DNA from: Sandaracinaceae bacterium
GTDB lineage: Bacteria > Myxococcota_A > Polyangia > Polyangiales > Sandaracinaceae
NCBI GenBank assembly: GCA_019637095.1
Contig: JAHBWG010000061.1
Coordinates: 1 to 59,250, forward strand
Length of the DNA stretch: 59,250 bases
Reading direction: 5' to 3'
The notes below the pieces were generated by a model. That model was not told the DNA's origin. It saw nothing but the letters and a program-made list of their open reading frames with translations, and ran no database searches. Positions 30,937 to 56,142 of this stretch are shown piece by piece; the first letter of the stretch is position 1, and the number at the start of each line of letters is the position of its first letter. Both the position numbers and the translations under genes were made by a program.

Positions 30937-34308
<3,372 letters not shown>

Positions 34309-35816: not shown

Positions 35817-35842
35817 CCTCCGCACATGCGAGCTGGAACTCC

Positions 35843-38885: not shown

Positions 38886-39175
38886 AACGCTTCTTCGGGT
38901 CGTCGAGCCTCCCGGGGGCTAGCCATACGAAACCAGGAAGACGGTACCACCCGGGGGGCGCCCGTCGCAACCAGAGCCGATTCGGGCGGCCGAATCGGCG
39001 CGCCAGTAACGCAGGACGCAGGACACGAACCCCCCAGGCCGACGTCCACGAGCGTCCCGTGGGGCCGCAGATCGACCGTGAGCAGGCGATGAGGACGGAG
39101 CGGTGCGCCGCGGCCGGCGAGGACGCTCAGCCGAACGCAGGCCGGAGCTGGCCCCGAGGCCGTGACGTAAGTGCC

Positions 39176-39638: not shown

Positions 39639-39795
39639 CCCGACTCCGAGGATGCCACGGCGGCGTGCCCGGGGGCGCGCGCGAGAATTCGAACCGGGTG
39701 GCGGTCGATTTCGTGCGACGGCGCGCGCCGGCTCGCGTCCTCGGCGTGCGCGGCGAGGGGCCGCGTGACTTTCCCGACGAGGAGCCGAGAGACCC

Positions 39796-41115
39796 ATGAA
39801 GAGGACCACCGTAGCGCGCGCGCTCTTGATCACGCTGGCGCTCGCGAGCGCCACCGCCTGCGGGCGCGGCGCCGTCGCCCTGCGCACCGAGACGCCGGTG
39901 CTCTTGCAGGCCGCCGCCGACCCCGCCGCGCTGCGCGCGGCGATCGTGCGCGCGCTCGAGGCGCGGCGCTACACCACCGAGAGCGAGGAGCCGGGCGCGA
40001 TCGTCGCGCGCATGTCGCAGCGCGGGACGATGCTGCGCGTGCGCGTCGACTACAGCGGGACCGACTACCGCATCACGTACCTCGAGAGCGAGGGGCTCGA
40101 GCACCGCGTCGACGCCGCCGGGCACGCGACGATCTCGCGCCGCTACGACGGCTGGGTCGCGCAGCTCCAGCGCAGCATCGCCGACGAGCTCGCGCGGCCC
40201 GAGCGCGAGGCGCGCGAGGCGGTCGAGGAGCAGCGGCGCCACGAGCTCGCGGTGATCGAAGAGCAGCGCCGTCGCGAGCAGGAGGCGCGCGACCACCAGT
40301 CGCGCGAGCAGGAGCGCGAGCGTCGCGCGCAGCTCGAGCGCGAGCGCCACCTCACCGAGCGCGAACGCCTGCGCGCCGAGCAGGCGCGCGCCGAGGCGGA
40401 GGCGCGGCGGCCGGTCATCGTCGACCACACGCCGTACGTCGTCGACTCCATGGTGGTCGCGCCGCGCCAGCGGGTGCGCGCCCGCTTCGCGAGCATCGAC
40501 GTCGACGGCCGCGTCCGCACGCGCTGGCTCGACGGTCAGGCGGAGGGCGACATCGACAGCACGTCGATCGGGCTGCCCGCGAGCTGCCGCGGCTTCTACG
40601 CGGGCACGCCGGAGCACCTGCTCCAGGTGCGGCGAGGCGTCGACTACCTGCGCCTCGAGACCGACGCGGAGGGCGACCCGACGCTCATGCTCGTGGCGTC
40701 GGACGGCGCGGTGTACTGCGACGACGACGGCGGCGAGGGGCTGAACTCGCGCATCGAGGGCAGCTTCCCGCCCGGCACGTACCGCGTCTACGTCGGCAGC
40801 TACCGCGCGGGCGAGAGCGCGCGCTACCGGCTCCTCGTCAGCGCGGAGCGCGCCGAGGCGCCGCGGCCGGACGTCGCGCGCCGCGCCCCGCGCGACGCGC
40901 CGCCCGCGCCGTGCCGCACCGTCGTGATCGAGATGGGCCACAACCCCGTCCAGGGCATGCACTGCGACGGCGCGGAGCCGCGCTGCGCCGAGGCGCTGCT
41001 GCGCGCCGGCCACTCCCCCGCCCAGCTCCTGCACTGTCGCGGCGTCGAGCCGGCGTGCGCGGTCGCGTCGCTGCGCGCCGGCCACTCCCCCGCGCAGCTC
41101 CTGCACTGCCGCTGA
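39796..41115 (+). CDS. Coiled-coil lipoprotein with C-terminal Cys repeats (copy B)
   Basis: Identical in protein sequence to the 439-residue product of 34466-35785, including the lipobox, the Glu/Arg coiled coil and the three C-terminal Cys units. Its upstream region is also duplicated, so it should be expressed like copy A, giving a double dose. No sequence divergence is seen, so the duplication is recent or maintained by gene conversion. Confidence 0.85.
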   Translation: MKRTTVARALLITLALASATACGRGAVALRTETPVLLQAAADPAALRAAIVRALEARRYTTESEEPGAIVARMSQRGTMLRVRVDYSGTDYRITYLESEGLEHRVDAAGHATISRRYDGWVAQLQRSIADELARPEREAREAVEEQRRHELAVIEEQRRREQEARDHQSREQERERRAQLERERHLTERERLRAEQARAEAEARRPVIVDHTPYVVDSMVVAPRQRVRARFASIDVDGRVRTRWLDGQAEGDIDSTSIGLPASCRGFYAGTPEHLLQVRRGVDYLRLETDAEGDPTLMLVASDGAVYCDDDGGEGLNSRIEGSFPPGTYRVYVGSYRAGESARYRLLVSAERAEAPRPDVARRAPRDAPPAPCRTVVIEMGHNPVQGMHCDGAEPRCAEALLRAGHSPAQLLHCRGVEPACAVASLRAGHSPAQLLHCR

Positions 41116-41167
41116 AGATCGGTCGATGAATCGGACCGAGCACCGCCGTGGTCCCATGTGCCGCGTG

Positions 41168-41193
41168 ACCACCCATCGTGGCGGTGGTAGCTT
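41168..41193 (+). promoter_or_regulatory. Inverted repeat overlapping a putative -10 of the poly-G gene
   Basis: ACCACC (41168-41173) and GGTGGT (41183-41188) form an inverted repeat whose right arm overlaps TAGCTT (41188-41193), a possible -10. A strong ribosome binding site (GGGAGGAGG) follows before the ATG at 41217. Confidence 0.4.
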
Positions 41194-41216
41194 GGCAGCA
41201 AGGGAGGAGGACGCGC

Positions 41217-42609
41217 ATGACACAGCGTGATCGACGAGGGCGTCGGCTCATGGGGGGGGGGGGTTGCCGTGCTCGTCCTCATGGCGCCGTTGTTGGCCGG
41301 CGGCCGGCGCGGCACGTGTGACGGACCGCGCGGGTTCTACGTGGACGTCCGCGAGCCGCTCCCCGTCGGAGACCGGACCGCTCGCTACTTCGTCGAGATG
41401 CCGACGTGGGCGGACGAAGATCTCTCGGGAAGCGCGAGGCTTATCACGCCCTGGGCTCCCCTCGTCGGTGGCCCGGGTGTCGGGGCCCGGGTCGATCGGA
41501 TCCGTTGGCAAGGCGACTCCTACTCGCAGGCGCTCATCTTCCCGGCCGAAGGCGATGCAGCCGGGACGATTCGCGAACGGGGCTGGACCCGCTCTTCCGA
41601 CGACGGGGCGATCGATCTCGGACTGGCCGGGCGCTTCTCCTCCGTGCGGTCCGTCGACCTTGGTTCTTGCTCCGCGACTCAGTCGTACATCGACGGCGCG
41701 GGTGGGGGGTTCGCCGAGCAGCTCGATGCGGGGCTCCTCGAGGCGCTCCGCCAGCCGATCGCGGACAGTGCCCCAGACGCCTGCGCCATCACGTGCGCGG
41801 GTCACCTCGAGCCCATCACCTACCTCATCTGCTTGTCCAACTGCGTCGCGGTCGGCGCGCGGGTCGGTCGGAATCGGCCATCGGAGTTCTGGCCGACGTT
41901 CGGTTCGCAGGCGCCCTCCGGCGTCCCCGAGGTGACCGAGACGGAGGGCTACCCCACCGACGACAGCCTCTGCTACTCGGCCGACTTCTACGCCGGGGTC
42001 GCCCACACGTTCACGGACTCGGCGCCGTTCACCGTGTGCTTCCAGATCGGGGTGCGCCGCAGCTTCGTGCCGTTCCTCGAGCGCGAGGCGCTTCGCCGCC
42101 CCGACGATCGGGCGCGTGCCCCGTTCGAGTTCGAGCGGAGCCGGGTAACCGTCCGGCTCACGCGCGTGGTCGTCGGGACGTTTCGATCCGGTCAGCTCCC
42201 CACGATCACGCCCGCGCAGCTCGAGGCGGCGCTGCGAGACCCGGTGGGCGGCCTGGCCCCCTCGCTCGAGGCGCGGATCACCGAGGCGCTCTGGGCGCCA
42301 GCGCTCTGCCCCGCGCTGACGAACGCTGCGAACCGGGCGGCGTGTCGTCTCGCCACGGGCACGAACGACGTGCGGATGCGCGATGGCGCGCCGCAGTTCC
42401 TCGCCCACCCCGACCGCTTCGAGGTGTTCCCCGACCGCCTCGAGATCGTTCTGACCCGAGACTACTGGGATCGTCCTGAGGAGGCGCCACCGCCGTCCCT
42501 CCAAACCGACCGGCAGGTCGACATCTTTCGCGTGGGCATGCTCTGTGACCGCGCACGGATGATCCCGGCGAGCATCGACCACCCCACCGCGCGGCTGGTG
42601 ATCCCGTGA
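41217..42609 (+). CDS. Secreted protein of unknown function, switched out of frame by a poly-G tract
   Basis: The ATG at 41217 follows GGGAGGAGG and starts a charged signal-peptide n-region (MTQRDRRGRRLM). A run of 12 Gs follows directly. In the present sequence this leads into a short out-of-frame tail. With 11 or 14 Gs the reading continues as VAVLVLMAPLLAGG, a good hydrophobic core, and then the whole body to 42609 (about 460 residues). The body has Cys pairs (ACAITCAGHLEPITYLICLS), strand-rich parts (FEFERSRVTVRLTRVVVGTF) and a late PDRLEIVLTRDYWD. No family is recognised. The stop overlaps the start of the next gene. The gene appears to be OFF in this sequence, or the G count is misassembled. 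Confidence 0.7.
41252..41263. repeat. Poly-G tract (12 Gs) inside a signal peptide
   Basis: Twelve consecutive Gs, the first being the last base of an internal ATG. Tracts of this length are prone to slipped-strand mispairing. One G less, or two more, would restore the frame. Confidence 0.9.
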
Positions 42610-43415
42610 GCCCCCCGGTGACGCGCGCCGCCACGGTGGCCGTCGCGCTCTCCCTCGTCGGGTGCTTCGACTCGCACGGCACGGAGGACGCCGGGGCCCG
42701 GCGCGACGCACAGGTCGACTGGCCGGACGGCTACGTTCCGAGCACGTGCGAGATCGCGCCCGGCATCCTGCGATGCAACGCGCCGGGCTGCGAAGACACG
42801 TGCCCGTGGACGGCCGAGTGTTACATGCAGGTCCCGATCCCGGCAGGCGACGGCTTCCGCGTCGGGCCTGGCGTGTGCGTCGAGTCCAGGGGCTTCGGTT
42901 GCGCTTGCGAAGCGGGTGAGGTCTGCGTGCCGGGAGTCACCCCCCGGGCCTCGGGGTTGCCGATGTTTTACCTCTGCGCTGACGCCGAGCACTGCGTCGC
43001 GGCGCGCAACGCGGCAGGGCTCGACGAGCTCGCTGGCTGCTTCTACGGCGACCTGACGCCGGCGGTCACGGGGGAGCTCCCGGAGGTCTCGTGCGCCGAG
43101 CGACCGCACGAGGCGCTCTGCGGCAGGGGCTGTCCGTGCGAGGACGGCTCGCGCTGCGGGCTGGCCAGCGAGACCGCGTCGTGGGGGCTGTGTCAGAGCC
43201 GGGCCCACGGCACGAGCTGCCGCGTGAGGGCCGGGTGCAACAGCGTCTTGCCGTTCGAGTGCGAAGGGTGTCGCGCGTGCCTCAGGATCGAGCCGAGCCC
43301 CGAGATGGCAGCACGGTGGGAGTCCGAGCCCTTCCAGTACTCGCTGTGCGTCCCGCCGGAGGTCTGCGAGACGCTGGCCTCGCTCTACCCCGACCGCTAC
43401 ACGTGTCCGCCATAG
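42606..43415 (+). CDS. Small Cys-rich lipoprotein
   Basis: A 269-residue protein whose GTG overlaps the stop of the preceding gene (GTGA), so it is translationally coupled. The signal MSPPVTRAATVAVALSLVGC gives a lipidated Cys20. The mature part contains about 20 Cys, many in close pairs (CNAPGCEDTCPWTAEC, CACEAGEVCVPG, CGRGCPCEDGSRC, CEGCRACL), pointing to a disulfide-stabilised surface protein. Parts of the second half (CGRGC...SRCGLASETASWGLC and the ending YSLCVPPEV...YPDRYTC) resemble the small lipoprotein of block 2 at 51248. Its production may depend on translation of the poly-G gene. Confidence 0.75.
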   Translation: MSPPVTRAATVAVALSLVGCFDSHGTEDAGARRDAQVDWPDGYVPSTCEIAPGILRCNAPGCEDTCPWTAECYMQVPIPAGDGFRVGPGVCVESRGFGCACEAGEVCVPGVTPRASGLPMFYLCADAEHCVAARNAAGLDELAGCFYGDLTPAVTGELPEVSCAERPHEALCGRGCPCEDGSRCGLASETASWGLCQSRAHGTSCRVRAGCNSVLPFECEGCRACLRIEPSPEMAARWESEPFQYSLCVPPEVCETLASLYPDRYTCPP

Positions 43416-43442
43416 GCACCTGAGATGCCCCGCGCAGCTCGT

Positions 43443-43548
43443 GGCGTCGAGCCGGCGTGCGCGGTCGCGTCGCTGCGCGCCGGCCACTGCCCCGCGCAGC
43501 TCCTGCACTGCCGCTGAGCGCGTCACCCCTCACGCGCGCCTTCACCGC
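43443..43548. repeat. Right direct repeat flanking inserted block 1
   Basis: Copy of 35711-35816 with two mismatches. It contains the last codons of the coiled-coil lipoprotein gene and its downstream bases, and it leads directly into the next resident gene. The sequence just left of it (43428-43442) also resembles the lipoprotein 3' repeats, with a small deletion. Confidence 0.85.
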
Positions 43549-43614
43549 GCCGACGGGCCGCTGTACCGTCGGCGCGGTGAGGCGGCACGGCGACGAGCGC
43601 GACGAGGACGCGCG

Positions 43615-45120
43615 GTGAGGCTGGCCGCGCCGCTCCTCGCCGGCTACGGGCTCGGCGTCGTCGCGCTGTGCGGGCTCTCGGGAGACCCGCCCGCGACCGA
43701 GCGGCGCAGGCTGTGGCAGGGCCAGGTCGACGGCGTGACGCTCACGATCGGCGCGCGCATGCACGCGTGGTCCCGCGGCGCGCACCTCGATCACTCCGCG
43801 CGCTGGGTCCCCGCGGCGCGCTTCGCGGCGATCTACGAGGACGTCGAGGCGGCGCGGGAAACGCGCCCCATCGCCCGCTACGACCTCACCACCGGGCGCC
43901 CGATTCGTCCCCAGATCGGATCGCGCCTGCGCTCGGACGACGACGGCCGCGCGGCGCTGGCGAGCCTCCCGTTCGTGGTCTGCCCGGTCCGCCACGGGGT
44001 CGCCTTCCGGCTCGCGGACGAGGCCTGGCAGGTGGTCTGGGTCCTCGGTGACGAGGTGTTCCACGCGTCGCCGCCGCTCGAGGGCGACGCGTGCGGGGAG
44101 CTCGCCGGGCGCGTGCCCGCGCGCGACGAGTGGCTCGCGCAGCGCCCCGTCGGCGCCACGACGTGCCGCGCGCTCGACGACGCGGGGCGGCGCGCGCTCG
44201 CCGCCGACTGCCTGGCGATCGGGCTGCGCACGGAGCTCGTCCCGATCGCGCCGCTGCCGGAGTCGGGAGAGGCCCGCCGGGCGGCGATCGCGCGGCCGCG
44301 CCCCGAGGACGACCCGTTCGACGCCCGGATCGCGGCGGACCCGGCGGCGATGGCGCGCTTCGAGGCGCGGCAGCTCGCGGCCGACGAGCCCGACGCGACC
44401 GACTCGGCGCCGCCGTCGCGCCGTCAGTTCTGGGCGCCCGGCGTGGCGCGCGTGCTCACCCGCGCCGGACGCGGCCCGAGCTTCGTCGCGCGCGTGACCG
44501 CCCAGTGCCGCGACGCGAGCCAGCCGTGCACGGATCGGATGCTCGAGGTGCTCGGCGCGCTGTGGCGCAGCGACGGCGCGCTCTCGCCCGACGCGTGCGA
44601 GCAGGTCAGCGCGCTCGCGGAGGTCCTCCGGGCGCGCCCCGACCCCGCGCCGATGGTCCGCGTGCTGGGCTTCGTGCGCGGCTACTTCGAGTGCGACACG
44701 CCCGCGCTCCGCAGGCTCGCGCTCGAGGGGCTCGGCGTCCCGACGCAGCCCGAGACGACGCTGACGACGCCCGACAGCCAGCGCTACGCGAACAACGACA
44801 CGCACTGCGGCGTCGCGCAGCTCCGCGACCGCGCGCGAGAGCCTCGCTGCGGATCGTACCCGCGCTTCGCCGGTGCATGGTGGATGCAGAGGTGTGATCC
44901 CGACGCCGTCGCGCGCGCCCGCGCCCTCGCGGCGGAGCGCCCGCGGGCGCCGTTCGATCCGCGCGAGGACCAGGTCCTCGACGGCGCGCTCCGCGTCCTG
45001 GGCGCGTGCGACGCCGAGGCCTTCGAGGCCGCGGTCGCGCACGTGCCGGACGACCCGGTCCCCGCCGCGAACCTGCGCTCGCGAGCGCGGCTGCGCGCCG
45101 TCTTCCTCTCCCCGCGCTGA
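43615..45120 (+). CDS. Hypothetical protein, probably exported
   Basis: A 501-residue protein starting with GTG (GAGG 11 bases upstream; another in-frame GTG lies at 43576). The N-terminus VRLAAPLLAGYGLGVVALCG is hydrophobic and could be a signal or anchor. Residues about 40-170 are beta-rich (YDLTTGRPIRPQIGSRLRSD, VAFRLADEAWQVVWVLGDEV). The second half is helical, with regularly spaced Cys (VTAQCRDASQPCTDRMLEVL, VRGYFECDTPALRRLALEGL, AWWMQRCDPDAVARARALAA), reminiscent of HEAT-like repeats held by disulfides. No family is recognised. It is the resident gene next to the coiled-coil lipoprotein before block 1 arrived. Confidence 0.65.
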   Translation: MRLAAPLLAGYGLGVVALCGLSGDPPATERRRLWQGQVDGVTLTIGARMHAWSRGAHLDHSARWVPAARFAAIYEDVEAARETRPIARYDLTTGRPIRPQIGSRLRSDDDGRAALASLPFVVCPVRHGVAFRLADEAWQVVWVLGDEVFHASPPLEGDACGELAGRVPARDEWLAQRPVGATTCRALDDAGRRALAADCLAIGLRTELVPIAPLPESGEARRAAIARPRPEDDPFDARIAADPAAMARFEARQLAADEPDATDSAPPSRRQFWAPGVARVLTRAGRGPSFVARVTAQCRDASQPCTDRMLEVLGALWRSDGALSPDACEQVSALAEVLRARPDPAPMVRVLGFVRGYFECDTPALRRLALEGLGVPTQPETTLTTPDSQRYANNDTHCGVAQLRDRAREPRCGSYPRFAGAWWMQRCDPDAVARARALAAERPRAPFDPREDQVLDGALRVLGACDAEAFEAAVAHVPDDPVPAANLRSRARLRAVFLSPR

Positions 45121-45234
45121 GTCGGCTGAGGCGCACGCTCCAACGCTCGAGCGGCGCGGCGCTCGATCGGTCGACGCTCTTCGAGTCCCGCGGACGCCGC
45201 GCTCCTGCCAGCGGCGCGCGGCGACGCCGTCGTG

Positions 45235-45240
45235 TACGCT
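45235..45240 (+). promoter_or_regulatory. Putative -10 element TACGCT, leaderless promoter
   Basis: TACGCT ends eight bases before the ATG at 45249, with no ribosome binding site between them. Confidence 0.45.
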
Positions 45241-45248
45241 GCGCGACC

Positions 45249-45890
45249 ATGTCGATGACGAGCGAGCCCACGACGAGAGAGTGCGCGCGCTGCGGCGCGC
45301 ACCTGCACCACGCCACCCTCCAGGGCTTCAGCCTGCTCGGCTGCGGCGCGTGTGGGGGCGTCTTCATGGACCAGGAGGCCGCTGCGAAGGTGGTGGACGG
45401 AGGCGTCTGGCAGGCGGGTCAGCTCGCAGAGACCCTGGAGCGCGGCACGACCGCGGATCTCGCCGCCCTCACACGCGAGCCCTGCTGCCCCGAATGCGGT
45501 GTGGTCATGGCGCCTGCGCACCTGATGGGCGTCGAGCTCGACGTCTGCGCGGAGCACGGCACCTGGTTCGATCGCGGTGAGCTCAGGTTCCTGCTGCGGG
45601 CCGTCTCGCCGCCGACCACCCCACAGCTCGCCGTCCGACGTCCCGCGCCCGCGAAGGAGCGCTATCGTTGGCTCGCGACGTTCCCCATCTTCTGCAACGC
45701 GCTGGTCGCCCTCTCCACGCTCGCCGGCTTCTACGGGCTCATCGCGGCGCTCTTCTTCGACGGTTACCCGGACTTCCCCGGCGCCGCGTGGGCGCTGCTG
45801 CAAGCCTCGATCGGCGTGTCCTTCCTCTTGGCTGCCGCCCAGGCGAGCAAGCTGCTGCTCGATCTCGCCGATCGGGGAGAGCTCTCCTGA
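45249..45890 (+). CDS. Zinc-ribbon (TFIIB-type zinc finger) membrane protein
   Basis: A 213-residue protein. Two zinc-ribbon units are visible: CARCGAHLHHATLQGFSLLG followed by CGACGGVFMD (about 12-41), and CCPECGVVMAPAHLMG followed by VCAEHGTWFDRGELR (about 80-113). The pattern C-x-x-C...C-x-x-C-x-G-x-W-F/x-D is typical of the zf-TFIIB domain family, small proteins of unknown function. Two transmembrane helices follow (TFPIFCNALVALSTLAGFYG, ALLQASIGVSFLLAAAQASK). The zinc ribbons probably face the cytoplasm. The gene has its own TACGCT element and lies 68 bp before the histidine-kinase gene. Confidence 0.85.
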   Translation: MSMTSEPTTRECARCGAHLHHATLQGFSLLGCGACGGVFMDQEAAAKVVDGGVWQAGQLAETLERGTTADLAALTREPCCPECGVVMAPAHLMGVELDVCAEHGTWFDRGELRFLLRAVSPPTTPQLAVRRPAPAKERYRWLATFPIFCNALVALSTLAGFYGLIAALFFDGYPDFPGAAWALLQASIGVSFLLAAAQASKLLLDLADRGELS

Positions 45891-45944
45891 GGCGAGCGCC
45901 GGACGACGAGGACACACGAGCCGAGCGGGCGCGAGCTGGACGCG

Positions 45945-45950
45945 TATACT
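45945..45950 (+). promoter_or_regulatory. Putative -10 element TATACT, leaderless promoter
   Basis: TATACT is followed by seven bases and then the ATG at 45958, with no ribosome binding site. It is the best match to a consensus -10 in the window. Confidence 0.55.
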
Positions 45951-45957
45951 CCCGCGC

Positions 45958-47652
45958 ATGCCGGGGAGCTCGGGGCGGGACGCTTCGCCGCGTTGGGGAG
46001 CGATCCTCGACGCGGTCGCGCGCGTCGCCGATCACCTGCGCGCCGCGCCCTCCGTCGCGGAGGCGATGCCGCAGGTGCTCGCGGTCCTCGGGCACGGGAC
46101 GGGCGTCAGCCGGGTCTACGTCTTCGAGCACGTCGCGCACGATCGGGACGACGCGCGGATCCGCCAGCGCTTCGAGTGGTGCGCGCCGGGCGTGGAGCCG
46201 CAGATCGACAACCCCGATCTGCAGGACGCCGACCTCGGCGCGATGGGCTTCGACCGCTGGGTGCGCGAGCTGACCGCGGGGCGCCCGGTGTTCGGCGACG
46301 TGGCGGACTTCCCCGCGAGCGAGCGCCCGCTGCTCGAGGCACAGGCGATCCACTCGGTGCTCGTCCAGCCGATCTTCTCGGGGTCGTACTGGTGGGGGTT
46401 CATCGGGTTCGACGCGTGCGAGCGACCCCACGCGTGGCAAGCGGCGGAGGCCGACACGCTGCGCGTCGCCGCCCAGATGTGCGGGATGGCGCTCGCGCTC
46501 GAGTCGCGCGAGGCCCACGCGCGGCACGCGTACAAGATGGAGGCGCTCGGCCGCATGGCGGGCGGCATCGCGCACGACTTCAACAACCTGCTCGCGGTGA
46601 TGCACGGGAACGTGGAGCTCTTGCGCCGAGACGCGGGGCTCGCGGGCGTCGATCCCGGCCGCCGGCTCGTCGAGCTCGAGCAGGCGATCGACCAGGCCGC
46701 GCGGCTGACGCGCGAGCTGCTCGACTTCGGGCGCCCGCGCGACGAGGCCGCGCCGGTCACCGCGCCGCTCGAGGCGCTGCGCGCGCTCGAGCCGCTCCTG
46801 CGCCGCGTGGCCGGCCCGGACGTGCGGCTCGACCTCGACGCGCTCGGCGACGTCGCGCCGGTCCGCATGGCGCCGTCGCGGCTCGAGCAGATCGTGTTGA
46901 ACCTCGTGAGCAACGCGCGCGACGCGATGCCCGCGGGGGGCACCCTGCAGCTGCGCCTGCGGACCCTCGAGGCGGCCGAGGCGCTCGTCCTCGGGGACGT
47001 GCTCGCGCCCGGCGAGTACACGCTGATCTCGGTGCGCGACAGCGGGCACGGCATCCCTGCCGAGCTGCGCGAGCGGGTGTTCGAGCCGTTCTTCACGACG
47101 AAGGAGCTCGGGCAGGGGACGGGGCTCGGGCTCTCGACGGTCTACGGCGCGGTGTCCGCCGCGTCGGGCGCGCTGCGCCTGACGAGCTCCGCGTCGGGCA
47201 CGGAGCTGCGCGTGTACCTGCCCGCCGAGCGCGCGAGCGCGACGCCGCTGTCGCGCGCAGCGTCGGAGCCGGCGCCCGCGCCCGGTCACGGCGAGCGGAT
47301 CCTCGTGTGCGACGACAACGCGGCGAGCCTCGAGTGGATCGCGCAGGTGCTCCACGACGCGGGCTACCGCGTGCTCGTCGACGCGAGCGCGACCGGGTGC
47401 CTCGCGCGCGAGGAGGTCGCGAGGGGTGAGATCGACCTCCTGCTCACCGACGTGCGGATGGCGCCGATCGACGGGCCCACGCTGGCGGCCGAGCTGCGCG
47501 AGCGGATGGGCTCGCTCCCGTGCGTGTTCATGTCGGGCTTCACCGCGAACCTGCTCACCGGCCTGCGCGAAGAGGACACGCTCCTCGACAAGCCGTTCAC
47601 GCGCGCGCAGCTCCTGAGCGCCCTCGCGCGCGCGCTGCGCGAGGGCCGGTGA
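45958..47652 (+). CDS. Hybrid sensor histidine kinase (GAF, HisKA, HATPase, receiver)
   Basis: A 564-residue soluble protein. Residues about 15-190 form a GAF-type sensor (VARVADHLRAAPSVAEAMPQ, IHSVLVQPIFSGSYWWGFIG). The HisKA box has His206 in GRMAGGIAHDFNNLLAVMHG. The ATPase domain shows the N box LVSNARDAMPAGG, G1 in VRDSGHGIP, the F box EPFFTTK and G2 in GQGTGLGLSTV. From about 445 a receiver follows: ILVCDDN, Asp498 in LLTDVRMAP and the conserved Lys in LLDKPFT. There is no membrane segment, so it senses a cytoplasmic signal. No dedicated partner regulator lies nearby; the HPt protein at 6036 is a distant candidate, which is speculative. Confidence 0.93.
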   Translation: MPGSSGRDASPRWGAILDAVARVADHLRAAPSVAEAMPQVLAVLGHGTGVSRVYVFEHVAHDRDDARIRQRFEWCAPGVEPQIDNPDLQDADLGAMGFDRWVRELTAGRPVFGDVADFPASERPLLEAQAIHSVLVQPIFSGSYWWGFIGFDACERPHAWQAAEADTLRVAAQMCGMALALESREAHARHAYKMEALGRMAGGIAHDFNNLLAVMHGNVELLRRDAGLAGVDPGRRLVELEQAIDQAARLTRELLDFGRPRDEAAPVTAPLEALRALEPLLRRVAGPDVRLDLDALGDVAPVRMAPSRLEQIVLNLVSNARDAMPAGGTLQLRLRTLEAAEALVLGDVLAPGEYTLISVRDSGHGIPAELRERVFEPFFTTKELGQGTGLGLSTVYGAVSAASGALRLTSSASGTELRVYLPAERASATPLSRAASEPAPAPGHGERILVCDDNAASLEWIAQVLHDAGYRVLVDASATGCLAREEVARGEIDLLLTDVRMAPIDGPTLAAELRERMGSLPCVFMSGFTANLLTGLREEDTLLDKPFTRAQLLSALARALREGR

Positions 47653-47659
47653 GCCGCGA

Positions 47660-49261
47660 TCAGCCGTCGTAGGGCCGGCAGCACAGGTCGCCGGGCCGCG
47701 TCGCGCACGTCTCGCCGCTCCGGTAGAGCGCGATGCAAGAGGCCATGAGGCGGTAGTAGTAGTCGCCCATCGCGTTCTGCCCGGGCTCGATGTCGCGGTT
47801 GTACTCCACGTCGTACGCGTCGAGGAAACACGCCGAGTAGCGCGAGCACGGGCAGGTCTCGTGCTGCCCGCACGGGATGCGCTGGATCGTCCACTCGTTC
47901 CAGCCGGTGATCGTCGCGACGCCGACGCCCGGGTTGTCGAAGAGCGTCCCGAACTGCGCGCGCATGGTGAGGCCTCGGTGCTTGGGCACCGCGCACTCGG
48001 GCACGCTCATGTACGTCCACTGGTAGGCGGTGGTGATGCTCACCTGCTCCACCCTGCCCTCGCGGATCGCGGAGCGCTGGTTGCACCGCCCGCCGCGCGC
48101 CGGGTCCGCCGCGCACGGCTCCATGAAGCTCCAGTAGCTCGCGTCGTAGCGCCCCATGTGCGCCCACATGCGGCGCACCGTGTAGCGCGCCGACAGCTCG
48201 CGCAGCTTCGCCTCGTCCGTGACGAACGCCTCGCGGTTCTCCGTGACGAACAGGAGCGGCAGCCCGAGGTGCTCGGCCTGCATCCCCGGGTGCGCGGCGA
48301 GCCGGCTCAGGAGGTAGTCCACCGTGAAGACCGCCGGATCGGTCCGCGAGCTCACCACCGGCACCCAAGGCACGATGCGCGGCGCGCCGGGCACCGCGCT
48401 CCACACCGCGAGCATGCGCTCGAACGGATCGATGACCATCTCGCGCGTCCGGTCGCTGCGGCTGTCCATGTACGCGTGGTTGGTCGCGTCGATGAAGACG
48501 AAGTCGATGCCCGCGTCGCGGAGCTGCTCGGCGTGCCGGCGCAGCAGCGCGTCGTTGCGCGAGAGGCAGTAGTAGCCGGCCTCCGGCCGATCCCACCAGT
48601 GGAAGGCGTACAGCGGACCCCACGACTGCCGCCCCGCGAGGATCTCGCTGATGTCGTGGATCGCGCGGCGGTGCGGGTTGCCCTCCGCCTGCGGGCAGTG
48701 CCACGTGCTGTAGAAGATCCCGATCAGCGTGCCGCTCGTGTCGACCGGCCGCGACACGCACGCGTTGACGGACGTGTCGCAGCGCTGGCGCGCGCTCGCG
48801 CAATGCGAATCGTCGCGGCACTCGACGCAGAAGCGCCCGTCACAGCGGCCCCCGGTCGGGCACGTGCCGAACAAGCACGAGTACCGGCAGTAGCCGCGGT
48901 CGCAGCGCCTGCCCGTCGGGCACTCGGCGTCGCCACTGCACTCGGGCGGGGGCGCGCTCGAGCCCGCGTCGGAGCCCGCGTCGAGCGCGAAGGAGGCGTC
49001 GGGCGCGAAGGAGGCGTCGAGCGCGATGGAGGCATCGAGCCCGGCCGACGCGTCGAGCCCGGCCGACGCATCGAGCCCGTCGGGCTCGCTCGACGCGGCG
49101 TCCGGCCGCGCGCCCGCCTCGCCCGGTGGGGAGGGCGTCGAGGCGTCGAGCGTCACCCCCGGCGGCGCGCTCGCGTCGAGCAGGGCAGCGCGCGGCGCGC
49201 AGGCGACGCACGAGATCGAGCAGAGCAGCGCGAGCGCACCACGGCAGAGACGTCCAGCCAT
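47660..49261 (-). CDS. Secreted lipoprotein with Cys-rich region and glycoside-hydrolase-like domain
   Basis: A 533-residue protein. The ATG at 49261 has GGGGAG upstream and starts a signal with a likely lipidated Cys (MAGRLCRGALALLCSISCVA). A low-complexity LDAS-rich linker follows (about 40-105), then a Cys-rich part (CSGDAECPTGRRCDRGYC, CPTGGRCDGRFC, about 108-170). The main domain starts at TLIGIFYSTWHCPQAEG and continues with YAFHWWDRPEAGYYC and AGIDFVFIDATNHAY to the late ATITGWNEWTIQRIPC. This resembles the barrel of GH71/GH99-like glycan-processing proteins (W-x-x-P-E-x-G-Y and W-N-E-W are suggestive), so a polysaccharide target is possible. The family call is tentative. Confidence 0.65.
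   Translation of the reverse strand: MAGRLCRGALALLCSISCVACAPRAALLDASAPPGVTLDASTPSPPGEAGARPDAASSEPDGLDASAGLDASAGLDASIALDASFAPDASFALDAGSDAGSSAPPPECSGDAECPTGRRCDRGYCRYSCLFGTCPTGGRCDGRFCVECRDDSHCASARQRCDTSVNACVSRPVDTSGTLIGIFYSTWHCPQAEGNPHRRAIHDISEILAGRQSWGPLYAFHWWDRPEAGYYCLSRNDALLRRHAEQLRDAGIDFVFIDATNHAYMDSRSDRTREMVIDPFERMLAVWSAVPGAPRIVPWVPVVSSRTDPAVFTVDYLLSRLAAHPGMQAEHLGLPLLFVTENREAFVTDEAKLRELSARYTVRRMWAHMGRYDASYWSFMEPCAADPARGGRCNQRSAIREGRVEQVSITTAYQWTYMSVPECAVPKHRGLTMRAQFGTLFDNPGVGVATITGWNEWTIQRIPCGQHETCPCSRYSACFLDAYDVEYNRDIEPGQNAMGDYYYRLMASCIALYRSGETCATRPGDLCCRPYDG
48970..49085. repeat. LDAS-encoding tandem repeats in the GH-like lipoprotein
   Basis: Short imperfect repeats of 18-21 bases encode GLDASAGLDASAGLDASIAL and related units, forming a flexible Asp/Ala/Ser linker between the membrane anchor and the Cys-rich part. 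Confidence 0.7.
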
Positions 49262-49456
49262 GCGCCGGGCTCCCCGCACGTTCGGGGCCAGCCGCTGCGC
49301 CCACGCGACTCGCCCGCGAACGGCCGCTCGGGGGCGCGTCGCGGGCGCACGAACGTTCGGCGCGCCGGACAGGTCGGTGGGGCGAGCGCCGCGTGGGAGC
49401 GAGCCCGGAGGTGCGGATCGAAGGACGCCGAAGGGTCGAGCGCTCTATCGAGGCCA

Positions 49457-49601
49457 GGCCATCGCGCAAGCGATGGCCGTTGGCCGAGGGGGCCCCATCG
49501 CCCCGCGATGGGGTCGAACGCGGCGCCGCCGCGTTCGCCTTGGGTGGGGGGCCCCATCGCGGCTTTGCCGCGATGGGGGGAGGGGCTGGAACAGCCCCTC
49601 C
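49457..49601. other. Array of five consecutive perfect hairpins
   Basis: Within the 351-bp gap between two minus-strand genes, directly after the stop of the beta-helix gene, lie five perfect stems. They are 49457-49478 (9-bp arms GGCCATCGC, loop GCAA), 49493-49513 (CCCCATCGC, loop CCC), 49515-49537 (CGAACGCGGC, loop GCC), 49552-49578 (CCCCATCGCGGC, loop TTT) and 49579-49601 (GGAGGGGCTG, loop GAA). Three share the core CCATCGC. The last one would be the first transcribed and may terminate the beta-helix gene. The remainder, 49262-49456, shows no gene. Confidence 0.85.
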
Positions 49602-49612
49602 AGCTAGCCAGC

Positions 49613-51100
49613 TCAGAACATCGGCGCGACGACGCCGAGCACGTTGCCGGGCGGCGGGACGAGCCCCGGGAGCGCCTCGGTGACCGCGGCGAACGCGCCG
49701 GTGAACGCGAGATCGTTGGCGCTCGTCGCCCCCTCGCGCGCGATGCCCGCGTCCCAGCCCGGCGGCGACTCGGCGGTCAGCCGGCCCGCGCCGCTCGCGC
49801 GGCCGGCGACCGCGCCGAGCTGCGCGCCGGTGCCCGACACGGTGACCCCCTCGAACGTCACCGCCCCCGCGCCGAGCTCGACGGTGACGCCCGCGCGCGC
49901 GTTGTCGGTGAGGCGCAGCCCCGCGAGCCGGATCGGCCCGCGCGCCCCGGTCACGTGGACTCCGTCGCCGACGCGCAGGAGCCCGATCGCGCCGACCGCG
50001 CGCTCGACCTCGCGCGTGCCCTCGACCGTCGCGCCCTCGACGCGGACCCCCGAGGAGCCGACGACCACGATCGCGGCGAAGCCGTTGTCCGAGAAGCGGC
50101 TCGCCGCGCCGTCGAGCACCGCCTCGTCGCACTCCGAGATCCAGAGCGCGGCGTCACCGTTGCCCGACGCGGTCACGTCGGTGAGGTGCGCGACGCTCTC
50201 GTGCACGAGCAGCCCGTAACGTTCGTTGTCGCGGACCGCGAGGCCCGCCGCGTCGAGGCGCGCGCCATCCGTCGCGATGAGCGCGTACGGCCGATCGCCG
50301 CGCAGCCCCGCGCGCGTCGTCTCGAGCGCGACCCCGGCGAGGCTCAGCGCGCCGCCGACCTGGCGCACGCCGACCCCGAGCGTGTCGGTCACCGCGCCGC
50401 CGCGCCACGTCACGACGCTCTCGTCGAGGAGCGCCCCCCACGCGGCGAAGCCGCGCGCGCTCACCCCCGTCAGCTCCGCGCGCGCGACGCGGCTCAGCAC
50501 GAGGCCGAAGGTCGCCGTCCACGTCGCCCACCGGCCCTCCGCGGTGCACACGCGCTCGGCGTCCGCGTCGAGCGCGCCCGGCTCGCAGTCGCACGCGCCG
50601 GGCGTCGGACACGGCGCCGGATCGGCGGGCGCCGGCGCGACGCGGACCCAGCGCGCGTCCTCTGCGTTGTCCCCGGTGACCGGGCCGGCGAGCGTCACGT
50701 CCTCGAGGATGAGCGAGGCGAGCTCCGCCGCGCCGAGCGCGATCCCGCGGCGCGCCTCGACGGCGACGCGCCGCACCTCCACCGCGCCGCCGCCGCGCAA
50801 GAGGACGCCGATGCGCCCGTCGACGCGCACGCGCAGATCGCGGATCACCGTGGGCGCGCCGCCGCCGATCGCGACGATGGCGCCGCTCTCGCGCGGGGCG
50901 ACCACGACGGTGCCGCCCGTGCCCGCGAGCGTGACGCCGGGCGGGACGCGGAGCGGGCCCTCGAGCTCGCAGTCGCCGAGCACCACCGTCTCGCCCGGCG
51001 CGGCGGCGAGGAGCGCGGCCTCGGCGTCGGCGCGATCACAAAGCTCGGACGTGCACGCGCCGAGGCCCACCGCGGCGATCGCCAACGCCAGATTGCGCAT
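49613..51100 (-). CDS. Lipoprotein with right-handed parallel beta-helix repeats
   Basis: A 495-residue protein. The ATG at 51100 starts MRNLALAIAAVGLGAC, with lipidated Cys16; an in-frame ATG at 51115 lies five codons upstream. From about residue 50 the protein consists of short strand-turn units (LRVPPGVTLAGTGGTVVVAP, TVIRDLRVRVDGRIGVLLRG, VEVRRVAVEARRGIALGAAE) of the pectate-lyase-like beta-helix type. One insert with four Cys (CPTPGACDCEPGALDADAER) may be a small disulfide loop. No catalytic residues could be pinned down; such proteins bind or cut glycans or serve as adhesins. The first 19 codons and the upstream region are duplicated at 56044-56136. Confidence 0.75.
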   Translation of the reverse strand: MRNLALAIAAVGLGACTSELCDRADAEAALLAAAPGETVVLGDCELEGPLRVPPGVTLAGTGGTVVVAPRESGAIVAIGGGAPTVIRDLRVRVDGRIGVLLRGGGAVEVRRVAVEARRGIALGAAELASLILEDVTLAGPVTGDNAEDARWVRVAPAPADPAPCPTPGACDCEPGALDADAERVCTAEGRWATWTATFGLVLSRVARAELTGVSARGFAAWGALLDESVVTWRGGAVTDTLGVGVRQVGGALSLAGVALETTRAGLRGDRPYALIATDGARLDAAGLAVRDNERYGLLVHESVAHLTDVTASGNGDAALWISECDEAVLDGAASRFSDNGFAAIVVVGSSGVRVEGATVEGTREVERAVGAIGLLRVGDGVHVTGARGPIRLAGLRLTDNARAGVTVELGAGAVTFEGVTVSGTGAQLGAVAGRASGAGRLTAESPPGWDAGIAREGATSANDLAFTGAFAAVTEALPGLVPPPGNVLGVVAPMF

Positions 51101-51135
51101 GCCGAGGCATATCACGTAGCCTCCGGGCGCCCCAG
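51043..51135. repeat. Left direct repeat flanking inserted block 2 (93 bp)
   Basis: A perfect copy of 56044-56136. It contains the start of the beta-helix lipoprotein gene (signal peptide and lipobox) and 35 bases upstream of its ATG. Confidence 0.92.
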
Positions 51136-51175
51136 GCGGAGCGAGGCCCCTCGCTCCGCGGCGGCGAGGCGCCGC
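51136..51175. other. Two hairpins at the left edge of block 2
   Basis: Exactly at the junction with the 93-bp repeat lie GCGGAGCGAGG/CCTCGCTCCGC (51136-51159, two-base loop) and GCGGCG/CGCCGC (51161-51175). They may terminate the small lipoprotein gene of block 2 or mark the element edge. Another 9-bp stem (GTCGGCGCG/CGCGCCGAC, 56005-56025) lies 18 bases inside the right edge. Confidence 0.55.
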
Positions 51176-51247
51176 GCCCGCCGGGTCTCTCGACGAGCCC
51201 CGTGCTCCTCAGGGCGTGCGCTGGGCTCACCCGTCGACCGCTCGCCG

Positions 51248-52144
51248 CTACAGCTCGTGGCCCCGTCGATCGAGGCAGCGGACCTCGGTCGGGAACCGGT
51301 CGCGGTACGCGACGCAGCTCCGGCGCGCCACCCCCCAGCCGTGGTCCGCGTACTCCGGAAGCGCTACGGGCGAAAGGAGCATGCACACGCAGTCGACGCC
51401 GCCAGCGGCCTGGCACTCGTCGAGGCCCTGGATCGGGTCGAGCCCGAGGGAGGGATCGACCGGCGAGCAGCGCAGCCGTGAAGGCGCACAGACGCCGAAG
51501 CCTCGCGACTCGCTGATCCCCACGCACGACGGCGAGAAGGAGGGGCCGTGGTAGGTCCCGGGGCACCTGTCGCCGCACTGGCCGCCACAGAAAGGCCAGC
51601 TCGGGTCGGAGCCGGTGCCGCAAGGTTCATCGGGTGGTCCCTCGTCGAAGAGCGTCCCCTCCGAGTAGCGACAGCGGATGTGAGCGAGCTCCGGCTGTCC
51701 GAGGACCCACCGACAATAGGCGTGGTCGACACAGACGCCGCCCCAGGTGTCCTCATGGGTACGGTGGAGCTCAGAGGTCGCGCAGAGGCGAGCGCCGCGA
51801 TAACAGTACGGGATGCCCACCGGGAGATTCACACCACAGTGCTCACGACCCCGGGGGTCCTCGTCGCTTCCCGCACACCGATGATAGACCTCGCTGCACG
51901 AGCGCCGATCCTCCGGGCATCGATCGGGGCAATAGGGTCCGCAGAGCCGCTCCGCACCCACCGAGCACTCCCCGGCGTCACCGCTTGCCGACGAGGCGTC
52001 ACCCTCTGAGCCGTCGGCGTCCACGCGACCGTCCTGCCGCGCGCCACCGTCGGCTCCAGCCGCGTCGGGGTCCACGGTGTTGACGAGGAAGCACGCCTCC
52101 AGCATAAGTCCGAACAGGGGGACCGTGAGATACGCAGATCGCAT
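51248..52144 (-). CDS. Small Cys-rich lipoprotein (block 2)
   Basis: A 298-residue protein. Its ATG overlaps the stop of the preceding large gene (TGATG), so the two are translationally coupled. The signal MRSAYLTVPLFGLMLEAC gives a lipidated Cys18, followed by an Asp/Ala/Gly linker. The mature part carries over 20 Cys in close pairs (CGPYCPDRCPEDRRSC, FCGGQCGDRCPG, DCVCMLL). Two stretches resemble the small lipoprotein of block 1: a Cys-Gly-rich segment followed by ESRGFGVC, and the ending with RSCVAYRDRFPTEVRCLD. It is probably a disulfide-rich surface protein. Confidence 0.75.
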   Translation of the reverse strand: MRSAYLTVPLFGLMLEACFLVNTVDPDAAGADGGARQDGRVDADGSEGDASSASGDAGECSVGAERLCGPYCPDRCPEDRRSCSEVYHRCAGSDEDPRGREHCGVNLPVGIPYCYRGARLCATSELHRTHEDTWGGVCVDHAYCRWVLGQPELAHIRCRYSEGTLFDEGPPDEPCGTGSDPSWPFCGGQCGDRCPGTYHGPSFSPSCVGISESRGFGVCAPSRLRCSPVDPSLGLDPIQGLDECQAAGGVDCVCMLLSPVALPEYADHGWGVARRSCVAYRDRFPTEVRCLDRRGHEL

Positions 52145-55100
52145 CAACACCCCGGAGGGAAGGGACAGATCTGGCACGTGCCGCCTCTGCACGCGTGGTT
52201 CGGCGGGCACCGAGCCCCGCAGGCTCCACAGTGACGCGTGTTCGACCCGAGGTCCGCACAGACCCCGTCGCAGCACGCCTCGCCCGGTTGGCACGTGCGC
52301 CCGCAGGTGCCACAGCTCCGAGGATCCGAGGTGAGATCGAAGCACCGCCCACCACAGTTCGATTGCCCCACGGGACAGCACACCCCAACCGAGCAGTTCC
52401 CGGATGCGCACACCGCTCCGCACTCACCACAGTTCGCGGGATCGCGGAGGAGATCGGCGCAACGAGCGACCTCCCCCTCGGTGCACACGCTGTTGCCCGC
52501 CGGACAACACCGTCCGTCGGCGCAGAGAGCTCCCGGCGGACACGCGTTGTCGCACGCGCCGCAGTGCTCGCGGTTCCCCGCGAGGGACACGCAGCCTCCG
52601 CCGCAGCACTCCTCGGCCTCGTCGCACACGTTGCCGCAGCCACCGCACGCCCACCGGTCCCGGGAAGGGTTCTGCACGCAGCGCCACGTCGTCGACGGCG
52701 CGGCGGGCGGCGCGGGCGTGGTGGTGAAGAACGGTCTTCCGCCGCCCGCGGGCGGCACGGGGCAGAAGTCCGAAGGGAAGCAGCACTCGCCGGACTCGCG
52801 GTCCGGGCCCAACGGGGTGAGCGCCGGGAGCGGCTGAACGTAGCAACTGAGGAGAGCGTGGTTCCGCCGATCGCCCGGTCGCAGCCGGTGCGGAAGCGGA
52901 GCGGGGCCACCACACTGCGTCCCGTCGTCGCTGCAGATCCCGCGGCAGCCGGTCACCACTCCGCTGGCCGCCACGGTCAGCGGGTCGTCGGGGTGGCAGA
53001 TTCTTCGGAGGCGCTGGCTGTCCGCGAGGTCGGTGATCGCACGTGCCACCGTGGTCACGATCTCCAGGGAATCGGATGTGAGGGAGCCGTCACGATCAGG
53101 AAAGCAGTAGGCACGCAGAGCCCCGTGGGGGCTCGTCGTGAACAACCGGTGCTGTGGATCCGTCGTGGAGTCGGCGAGCACGACCTCGAGCCCGTCGGGA
53201 CGCACGTTGACGCGCCGGAGCTCGAAGCGCACTCGCTCGCATCGGAAGTCGACGGCGAGCGCCGGGTCGTCGGTCCACTGCCCGCTCTCCTGAACGCCTA
53301 CGCATCCGTTGCGGCGCCCGCCAAAGTACTGGGGAAGCGCGGCCACGCACATCGCGTCGCTGGCGAAGACCACGCCGGTCTCCGGATCCGTGCGGCCGCA
53401 GGTCGGAACGTCCTCTCGGCGGATGCCCCAGTCGGTCAGGGGGCGCTCGAGCGAGCCGGTGAGCTGGCCGATGACGCGGTCGAACTGCGAACGGAGCTGT
53501 GCCTGGAGCCGGCCGGTCAGCGCATCGTTGAGCCCGCTGGTGATGCAGTCGACGAGCCCGCCATCGAGGAACTCGATCACGGGCTCGAAGTCGAAGGCGT
53601 CGCGGAGCGCCCGCACGCGGCGGGGTCGGACGTAGAAGTCCCGACGCAGGGGAGGAGCGCCCCCGATCTGCTGGCAGAGGTAGTGGTCCGGCATCACCCA
53701 GCAGCGCTCTCGGCACGCGACCGCGAAGTCACACTCGTGCGGCTCGGTCATCCGGCGATCCTCGAGCTCGCTCTCGAGCGTGGGAGCGAAGGCGGGGATG
53801 CGGCGGAGCCGAACCCCCATGCTGAGCCGGAAGCGCCCCCCGGGGCAGCCGAACGCACTACCGCGGACGGCCGCATACTCGATGAAGACGTTGAGCTGAT
53901 CGCTGTCGATCGCTCGGCCGAAGTCACCGCTGCCGCTCGCGAGGATGGGGGTGATGTGCGCCGGGGCGTAGTCGTGGCAGATCGGCGGCCCGCTCGTGGG
54001 GCATCCGTCTGCGAACACGGGAGCGAGCGTCAGGGGGTCGTGGGGGTAGGTCGCGCCGCCGTACTCCGTCTCGAAGTCGACGAGGAAGCGGTTCAAGGAG
54101 GCGGTCACCGCGTTGACGGCGTCTCGATGAGAGACGAAGCGGCTGCACGCCCCGGCGTCGTAGACGCGGAGCGACTGCCAGGTGCTGGGGGGGTCGCCGC
54201 CCACGAGACGGCCCAGCTCGATCGTGCGCACGGGCAGGCCCGCGAAGTTGGCGGGGAGCTGCGCGAAGCGGTGGCCAACGGTGACGCCCGCTGGTGGCCA
54301 ACCGGCCGTCGCGCTCGGCAGAAAGTCGGGCGGATCGGCCGGCGGGTTGCGATCGTCCCAGCGACCCGTCAAGTCGCCTTGCAACAGAAACAGGCGATGC
54401 CGATCGCCGAGCCGGTAGCGTATGCGCTGGGAGCGACCGCTGGTGCGTGGGAGCTCGGCCGGGCCCGCGCCAGTGTTGCCGCCCTCCGGGACCGCGACGG
54501 TGTCGCGGGCCGCAGCCTCGGTCTCGAGCTGGACGAACTCGCCGCCGCAGCTCGCGCCCTCGAAGGGCGCTGCGGCGCGGCCCTCCCGGCTCACGGCGCA
54601 GGGCCGGCACGCCTGCTCGCCGCTCGCCTCGTCGACGACGACGTGGCCTGGACAGCAACCTGCGCTCGTGGCGGGTTGTCCTTCACGCCCGCACGCGGTG
54701 CACCGTCCTCCTGCGCAGACGGCGAATCCGTCGCAGCAGTCGGCGTCCGAGGTGCACGGGTCGCCCACGTAGCGGCAGCACGTGAAGACCTCGCCGCGGC
54801 GCGGGTCGTTCGTCAGCTGGCAGTCGGCGCCGGTGTCCGCGCAGGGGACGCCGCCCTGCGGGTTGCAGAGGTTCCCGTTCGGCACGAGAAGCGGCCGGCA
54901 GTACCGCTGTGGCTGGTCGGTAGGCCCCGGTAGCGCGACGCACGGCTCCGGCGCGTCCCGGCAGGCGCACAGGTCGGGGCGCTCGACCCCTGGTGCCCCA
55001 GGCAGCTCGCATGCTCGGAGGCAGATGCGTCCGTGGTCCGGAGTGACTCGGCACCACGTGCCCGCCTCGCACGGCGCGCAGCCGTGGGGCCCGCGGTCCA

Positions 55101-55671
55101 GGTTGCCGTCGCACGGCTCGCCCTCGCGCGCGGGGAGCCAACAGAAACCGCGTGCGCTCCCCGAGAGGCCGGCACGGCGGCGAAGCGGGAACGCGCGCGG
55201 GCACCCGTCCGCGTCGGTGGCGTCGGCGTTGACGCAGAACGTGCCGCTCTCGCACTGCCGCGGCTCGGCGCCCGTATCGTCCGGGTCGCACTCATCGAAC
55301 AGGCCGGCCGCGGCGCGGCAGAAACCGATGCGCTCGGGCTCGATCGATCGCTCGCTCGGCGTGCATCGGTAGGACTGCCCGGCGGCCGTCGGGGAGGGGC
55401 AGCGAAACACGTCTGGCCGCAGGTACGCCTCGACGTCGCAGTCGTCGAGGGGGCACATCACGTCGCCGAGCATGTCGCCCTCGAAGACGGGCGCGCAGAA
55501 GTTGATGCACGCCTCCGCCGTCGTGAGATCGGCCCGGTCGCAGCGGCCCGTGAAGTCACAGCCCGTCGGCGTCGGCGTGCAGGTGGAGCCCAGCAGCAGC
55601 ATGGACCCGAGCACGAAGCTCAGCGCGACGAGTAAACGCTGCTTGCTTGCTTGCTCGCTCGTCGTCGTCAA
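52144..55671 (-). CDS. Large Cys-rich secreted protein (block 2)
   Basis: A 1,175-residue protein. The TTG at 55671 is preceded at good spacing by GGAGG and begins a signal peptide (MTTTSEQASKQRLLVALSFV, then LGSMLLLGSTC). Residues up to about 370 are packed with Cys in EGF/Stigma-like patterns (CTSDADCCDGFAVCAGGRC). The middle (about 390-880) is a larger fold with few Cys (IRYRLGDRHRLFLLQGDLTG, GDFGRAIDSDQLNVFIEYAA, LNDALTGRLQAQLRSQFDRV). The end has four to five Stigma-type repeats with HCGACDNACPPGALCADGRC-like units. It is probably a cell-surface or matrix protein. Its position before a small lipoprotein mirrors the gene pair of block 1. Confidence 0.75.
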   Translation of the reverse strand: MTTTSEQASKQRLLVALSFVLGSMLLLGSTCTPTPTGCDFTGRCDRADLTTAEACINFCAPVFEGDMLGDVMCPLDDCDVEAYLRPDVFRCPSPTAAGQSYRCTPSERSIEPERIGFCRAAAGLFDECDPDDTGAEPRQCESGTFCVNADATDADGCPRAFPLRRRAGLSGSARGFCWLPAREGEPCDGNLDRGPHGCAPCEAGTWCRVTPDHGRICLRACELPGAPGVERPDLCACRDAPEPCVALPGPTDQPQRYCRPLLVPNGNLCNPQGGVPCADTGADCQLTNDPRRGEVFTCCRYVGDPCTSDADCCDGFAVCAGGRCTACGREGQPATSAGCCPGHVVVDEASGEQACRPCAVSREGRAAAPFEGASCGGEFVQLETEAAARDTVAVPEGGNTGAGPAELPRTSGRSQRIRYRLGDRHRLFLLQGDLTGRWDDRNPPADPPDFLPSATAGWPPAGVTVGHRFAQLPANFAGLPVRTIELGRLVGGDPPSTWQSLRVYDAGACSRFVSHRDAVNAVTASLNRFLVDFETEYGGATYPHDPLTLAPVFADGCPTSGPPICHDYAPAHITPILASGSGDFGRAIDSDQLNVFIEYAAVRGSAFGCPGGRFRLSMGVRLRRIPAFAPTLESELEDRRMTEPHECDFAVACRERCWVMPDHYLCQQIGGAPPLRRDFYVRPRRVRALRDAFDFEPVIEFLDGGLVDCITSGLNDALTGRLQAQLRSQFDRVIGQLTGSLERPLTDWGIRREDVPTCGRTDPETGVVFASDAMCVAALPQYFGGRRNGCVGVQESGQWTDDPALAVDFRCERVRFELRRVNVRPDGLEVVLADSTTDPQHRLFTTSPHGALRAYCFPDRDGSLTSDSLEIVTTVARAITDLADSQRLRRICHPDDPLTVAASGVVTGCRGICSDDGTQCGGPAPLPHRLRPGDRRNHALLSCYVQPLPALTPLGPDRESGECCFPSDFCPVPPAGGGRPFFTTTPAPPAAPSTTWRCVQNPSRDRWACGGCGNVCDEAEECCGGGCVSLAGNREHCGACDNACPPGALCADGRCCPAGNSVCTEGEVARCADLLRDPANCGECGAVCASGNCSVGVCCPVGQSNCGGRCFDLTSDPRSCGTCGRTCQPGEACCDGVCADLGSNTRHCGACGARCPPNHACRGGTCQICPFPPGC

Positions 55672-56142
55672 GGCCCCCTCCGCGTGATCGACAGCGTACG
55701 AGGCAGGCAACCGCCGAGCAACGATCCGGGGGACGATCTTCTGCCGAGGTAGGCGCCATCCGAGCGTGCCCGCAGTGTCGGCAAGGCGCGCTCGAGCTGC
55801 CTGGCGCCGTACACCGGCCAGCGCGCACGAGGGTCGGACGCGCTACGCGGCTTGGCGCGCCCCCACGTCGTGCAGCGGCGAGCACCGGCTGAAGCGCCGG
55901 GCTCGTCCTCGACGAGTCTCTCGAAGTCCCCCGGCGGTGGGACGAGTGGGTCGTGGGCGGGCGGCAGATCGCCGAGCGTCATGCCGACGAGGGCAACGGG
56001 CCGCGTCGGCGCGGCGCGCGCCGACTTCGCGCCCACCGACGAGGCTCGGACGTGCACGCGCCGAGGCCCACCGCGGCGATCGCCAACGCCAGATTGCGCA
56101 TGCCGAGGCATATCACGTAGCCTCCGGGCGCCCCAGAGGAGC
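55672..56142. other. Intergenic region at the right edge of block 2
   Basis: This 471-bp stretch should hold the promoter of the large Cys-rich gene (minus strand) and of the kinase-ATPase (plus strand). I see no convincing gene in it. It includes a 9-bp hairpin (56005-56025) and the right 93-bp repeat, which carries an orphan copy of the beta-helix gene start (MRNLALAIAAVGLGAC) that quickly runs into unrelated codons. Confidence 0.6.
56044..56136. repeat. Right direct repeat flanking inserted block 2
   Basis: Perfect copy of 51043-51135. Before the insertion this DNA was the divergent promoter region between the beta-helix gene and the kinase-ATPase gene that starts seven bases after the repeat. 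Confidence 0.92.

Follow-up and report, generated by a model that had tools for sequence, protein, structure and literature searches.

The window analysed here is a stretch of 59,250 nucleotides (positions 1-59250 of contig C156) in the genome of a Sandaracinaceae bacterium, G000, which comprises 9.25 Mb in 197 contigs and is 96% complete with 4% contamination. It contains two gene pairs, each consisting of a gene for a large protein and a gene for a small cysteine-rich lipoprotein, and each lying in a block between direct duplicates of the end of a resident lipoprotein gene. This arrangement poses two questions. What are the paired genes, and how did they come to lie between two copies of a neighbour's end? 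The features concerned are the following.

39796-41115, + strand: resident lipoprotein gene, 439 aa, intact, its 3′ end duplicated; it lies in a 1,940-bp exact repeat, with a second copy at 34466-35785
41037-41115, + strand: left copy of the block 1 duplication, the 3′ end of resident gene 39796-41115; 79 bp, 97% identity to 43439-43517
41116-43438, + strand: inserted block 1, 2,323 bp, between the 79-bp duplicates
41227-42609, + strand: large protein of block 1, 460 aa, core family; E-value 7e-78 with the large-core profile, which contains this sequence itself
42606-43415, + strand: small Cys-rich lipoprotein of block 1, 269 aa, 27 Cys, GTG start at 42606
43439-43517, + strand: right copy of the block 1 duplication; extended by 31 bp, to 43548, it aligns with 35707-35816 as well (110 bp, 97%)
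49613-51115, − strand: resident right-handed beta-helix lipoprotein gene, 500 aa, intact (PF13229, E-value 1e-6)
51043-51135, − strand: copy of the block 2 duplication at the 5′ end of resident beta-helix gene 51115-49613; 93 bp, 100% identity to 56044-56136
51136-56043, − strand: inserted block 2, 4,908 bp, between the 93-bp duplicates
51248-52144, − strand: small Cys-rich lipoprotein of block 2, 298 aa, 25 Cys, ATG start at 52144
52144-55671, − strand: large protein of block 2, about 1,175 aa, TTG start at 55671
56044-56136, − strand: second copy of the block 2 duplication, coding only for a signal peptide, a lipobox and a short truncated frame

The first-pass annotation had claimed that the large gene overlaps the small lipoprotein gene by its stop codon in both blocks, and that both pairs sit between direct duplicates of resident lipoprotein-gene ends. 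Both claims are borne out, with the junction reading GTGA (4 nt of overlap) in block 1 and TGATG (1 nt) in block 2, and with duplicates of 79 bp and 93 bp at 97% and 100% identity, respectively. The GC content of block 1 is about 0.71, compared with 0.75-0.78 in its flanks. The large protein of block 1 has no match in Pfam, NCBIfam or PHROG. That of block 2 consists of an N-terminal Cys-rich region, the core (about residues 380-940) and C-terminal Cys repeats, the last of which match PF04885 (STIG1) and NF041328 (MXAN_6577-like). These two models match only this tail, which is absent from the large protein of block 1, and both the conserved core and the small protein lie outside it.

Are the two small lipoproteins related to each other? 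Direct BLASTP among the window proteins gave no significant match, the comparison of the block 1 and block 2 small proteins having an E-value of 0.07. In a genome search, the block 1 small protein matched the copy in a third pair of G000, on contig C35, with an E-value of 4e-4, and the C35 small protein in turn matched that of block 2, also at 4e-4. On contig C154, a fourth locus of G000 comprises a large gene resembling that of block 2 (70% identity) and, behind it, two small genes in tandem. Judged from such intermediates and from shared invariant cysteines, the small lipoproteins of block 1 and block 2 are distant homologues; the first-pass annotation had named the lack of any detectable homology between them as grounds against its proposal, and homology was found. 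A profile built from five sequences of the family finds members in other genera; with one built from twelve, the family is detected in 18 of the order's 183 genomes and in 16 of its 83 genera, a patchy distribution.

The family alignments show a hydrophobic N-terminus followed by a nearly invariant cysteine of the lipobox type, with 18 invariant cysteines among 12 members and 16 among 20. The 20-member alignment also contains the motifs CGG.CG and G..E.RG.G.C. The similar endings of the two window proteins, pointed out in the first-pass annotation, align with each other and are conserved as C...[YF]P...C in the 20 members, in which the protein is conserved up to its last cysteine and possesses no variable C-terminal domain. 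Pfam gave no convincing match for any member of the family, NCBIfam and PHROG gave none for the two window proteins, and named genomes, scanned with the block 2 protein, likewise gave nothing. The structure model of the small protein has a mean pLDDT of 78, with much of the core at about 90; no matching fold was found for it in the PDB, VIA or viral structures, and the family profile matched no solved (PDB) sequence.

The large-core profile is present in 12 of the 183 genomes at 19 loci, at 16 of which the next gene encodes a Cys-rich lipoprotein. Ten loci are known from the large profile alone; here the next gene belongs to the small family in six (E-values from 4e-4 to 4e-20), and in a seventh it encodes another, unrelated-looking lipoprotein. 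In nearly all of the 16 paired loci the start of the small gene overlaps or abuts the stop of the large one (ATGA/GTGA, TGATG, −12 to −18 nt, +3/+4 nt, and one case of +34). The distances among the large proteins and among the small proteins co-vary, with a Mantel r of 0.71 (p = 2e-4), or 0.29 (p = 0.007) after removal of the closest pair. The large proteins differ in length, that of block 2 carrying added Cys-rich ends, and AlphaFold gave no usable model of the core (pLDDT 37). Roughly one in two small genes is solitary, and tandem or truncated copies also occur; a large partner is therefore not obligatory. The alternative envisaged at the outset, that homologues are mostly single genes in stable positions, is thus at odds with the large genes and partly agrees with the small ones. 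At locus L024 (6450-8565), the small lipoprotein gene is tandemly duplicated behind one large gene (565 bp, 92%).

With regard to the second question, relatives of the module are informative. In the finished 10.75-Mb chromosome of G008, a 1,031-bp insert at locus L135 holds only the small gene and has on either side the same 51 bp, which form the end of an FG-GAP lipoprotein gene and are identical in both copies. The finished genome G007, from the genus of G008, has the empty site with a single copy of the 51 bp; the flanks of the G008 insert overlap in G007 by exactly these 51 bp, identical and with no base lost. Because a sister genome shows the empty site for one relative, the duplicates bracketing the inserts are insertion scars of target sequence, the empty site itself belonging to L135 and not to the window blocks. 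A further scar occurs at locus L046 in G036, in which 83-bp repeats of 94% identity flank a small gene behind a beta-helix lipoprotein gene. At each of the four scars (block 1, block 2, L046 and L135), the resident gene has remained whole and shares its strand with the inserted genes. The four repeats, of 79, 93, 83 and 51 bp, respectively, are unrelated in sequence; three are located at the 3′ end of a gene, and that of block 2 at a 5′ end. No transposase or integrase was found in the inserts, as judged from the ORF and Pfam content of blocks 1 and 2 and the ORF content of L135 and L046. No empty site was seen for L046 in related genomes or for L081 in G005.

Could such brackets be a matter of chance? 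In a control scan of about 1.2 Mb, the background was 1.15 brackets per 100 kb in G000 and 0.25-0.29 in two other genomes, and a 49-kb control sample of a fourth genome contained none. From the scan coverages, a Poisson estimate gives about 0.3 module scars expected versus 4 seen (p about 4e-4), a count biased by the selection of the window blocks for their brackets; after subtraction of these blocks, roughly 16 loci contain 2 scars where about 0.23 would be expected (Poisson p about 0.02). Chance does not account for the brackets. Most small-gene loci have no bracket, including two of the four in G000 (C35 and C154), and duplicated neighbours are therefore not a constant feature of the module. 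Moreover, other bracketed segments in G000 carry unrelated genes, and the process is therefore not specific to the module. The earlier proposal of an undescribed, exchangeable surface cassette, whose homologues might always come as overlapping pairs between duplicated neighbours, survives in part: the module recurs, is gained and lost, and its large genes are usually paired, but the bracket is inconstant and the small genes are often solitary.

Several candidate brackets were rejected as target duplications. The one at L042 derives from what is left of a second small gene, the repeats at C154 reflect a tandem duplication of the small gene, and the one at L142 (5337-5382 and 12271-12316, in G277) is a tRNA att site.

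Block 1 is nested in a larger structure that the first-pass annotation had not noted. Positions 33846-35785 and 39176-41115 form the exact 1,940-bp direct repeat, which takes in the whole resident lipoprotein gene and a portion of a gene for a divergent protein kinase, and between its copies lies a further insert (35817-39175) with two minus-strand genes and a GC content of about 0.68. The simplest order of events would be that this insert, which duplicated about 1.97 kb, preceded block 1, and that the latter entered at the end of the second copy. Since the genome is fragmented, this outer structure is to be taken with caution.

On balance we lean towards an accessory two-gene surface module, some copies of which arrive by insertion with long target duplication. 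The first gene would encode an exported protein with a conserved core and an apparent ordinary signal peptide, and the second a small lipoprotein in which at least 16 cysteines are conserved and whose lipoprotein signal implies that it is anchored, probably in the outer membrane. The overlap of the two genes may couple their translation, in which case both products would be made in step. In the most economical reading, the two products most likely form one disulphide-rich surface complex, with the lipoprotein as the anchor half and the large protein as the exposed half that might bind ligands or mediate adhesion; such a role is suggested by the neighbours, which are cysteine-rich, beta-helix and FG-GAP surface proteins. 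The modules are accessory, and at least some copies enter the chromosome with a long target duplication. As the insertion copies 50-100 bp of target, the resident gene stays intact. A plausible course is that a break with widely staggered nicks is repaired and filled in around captured DNA, which we favour because it yields target duplications of variable length. Ku end-joining was considered as the general mechanism and rejected: Ku is present in G007, G008 and G006 and was not found in G000, and classical Ku end-joining is therefore seemingly not required.

The main rival to staggered-nick insertion is a circular donor with short homology. If a circular or tandem donor contained the end of the resident gene beforehand, homologous recombination with it would leave the same product, and recombination of circles has been proposed for transposed genes in Arabidopsis, which likewise lie between direct repeats homologous to the target site, albeit in a plant genome (PMC2869330). 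A large homology of this kind would be consistent with the exact repeat of 1,940 bp next to block 1. However, no donor arrangement was found, and the borders of the L135 insert have no evident extra homology to the target; we therefore hold this route to be possible but the less probable one. The repeats might alternatively be att sites, used by a trans-acting recombinase for site-specific integration at gene ends, given that a gene 3′ end is covered in three of the four scars and that the distant small-family gene at L142 in G277 lies on an element that is integrated at a tRNA and carries a tyrosine recombinase. We think this unlikely, since the four repeats are unrelated, unequal in length and without a constant core, block 2 sits at a 5′ end, and the inserts contain no recombinase or integrase. 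That the window structure is an artefact of assembly or strain mixture seems very unlikely: an exact 1,940-bp repeat in a genome of 197 contigs with 4% contamination would invite such a suspicion, but the long repeat is not needed for block 2, and the same kind of scar is found in one finished genome and the empty site in another.

The remaining rival concerns the function of the pair. In the sitBAI genes of Myxococcus, sitB overlaps sitA by 11 bp (PMC5562445), and the large protein could accordingly be a SitB-type accessory and the small one a SitA-type toxin, moved between cells by outer-membrane exchange, a route of lipoprotein delivery that the first-pass annotation had also considered. 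In both systems the gene of an exported protein overlaps a lipoprotein gene downstream of it, a genome has several divergent copies, and the context is mobile; the likeness to SitB is one of gene layout. Unlike SitA, the small protein has no variable C-terminal toxin domain and no toxin match in Pfam; no immunity gene follows the pair, since the duplicate and resident sequence come next in both blocks; and the TraA model NF033759 had no match in G000 and none above cut-off in 10 family genomes. A Sit-like system is hence highly improbable, and the suggestion of outer-membrane exchange is not upheld.

Insertion with long target duplication, the route preferred here, has been described in Helicobacter (Nobusato et al. 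2000, Gene 259:99-108, as cited through PMC1643837 and PMC3031569), where a restriction-modification cargo is a frequent association rather than part of the definition. The common points are a gene or small block without a transposase of its own, a long target duplication of variable length, and a relative with a single-copy empty site (here L135 of G008 compared with G007). Different from the often restriction-modification cargo in Helicobacter, the inserts here are lipoprotein modules in a myxobacterial order, and they land beside lipoprotein genes. The scars thus belong to an already known insertion type, and the cargo is new.

The analysis defines a conserved, previously unnamed two-gene envelope module, whose Cys-rich lipoprotein fits no solved fold, and provides a base-exact case, in two finished genomes, of a single gene that entered without a transposase and duplicated 51 bp of its target. 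Such entries could account in part for the way in which the large genomes of myxobacteria acquire surface genes while the existing genes stay unbroken. A more far-reaching proposition, which we put forward only tentatively and regard as rather doubtful, is that surface-lipoprotein modules of myxobacteria spread preferentially by this recombinase-free insertion with long target duplication, beside resident lipoprotein genes on the same strand; if true, it would amount to a non-disruptive swapping of surface components, one gene or pair per event. The insertion process could be put to the test in finished genomes of myxobacteria that show empty sites.

Some further repeats were observed beside these loci. 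At L025, a 61-bp direct repeat of 93% identity (11168-11228 and 13284-13344) begins 42 bp past the C35 pair and brackets a DUF2330-like gene, a scar of the same kind with another cargo. Direct-repeat-bracketed segments of G000 also occur at L062 (1188-1754 and 8765-9331), where the duplicated part is the 5′ end of a TPR lipoprotein gene, at L051 (2056-2144 and 9115-9203) and at L068 (15314-15390 and 16198-16274). Finally, a dispersed 30-bp element, CGGGGACGATCCTATTCATTCGTCAAACTC, is located at L042 (10292-10321) and at many places in G005 and G006, with about 9 copies in 340 kb, often just 3′ of genes and sometimes as adjacent inverted pairs.
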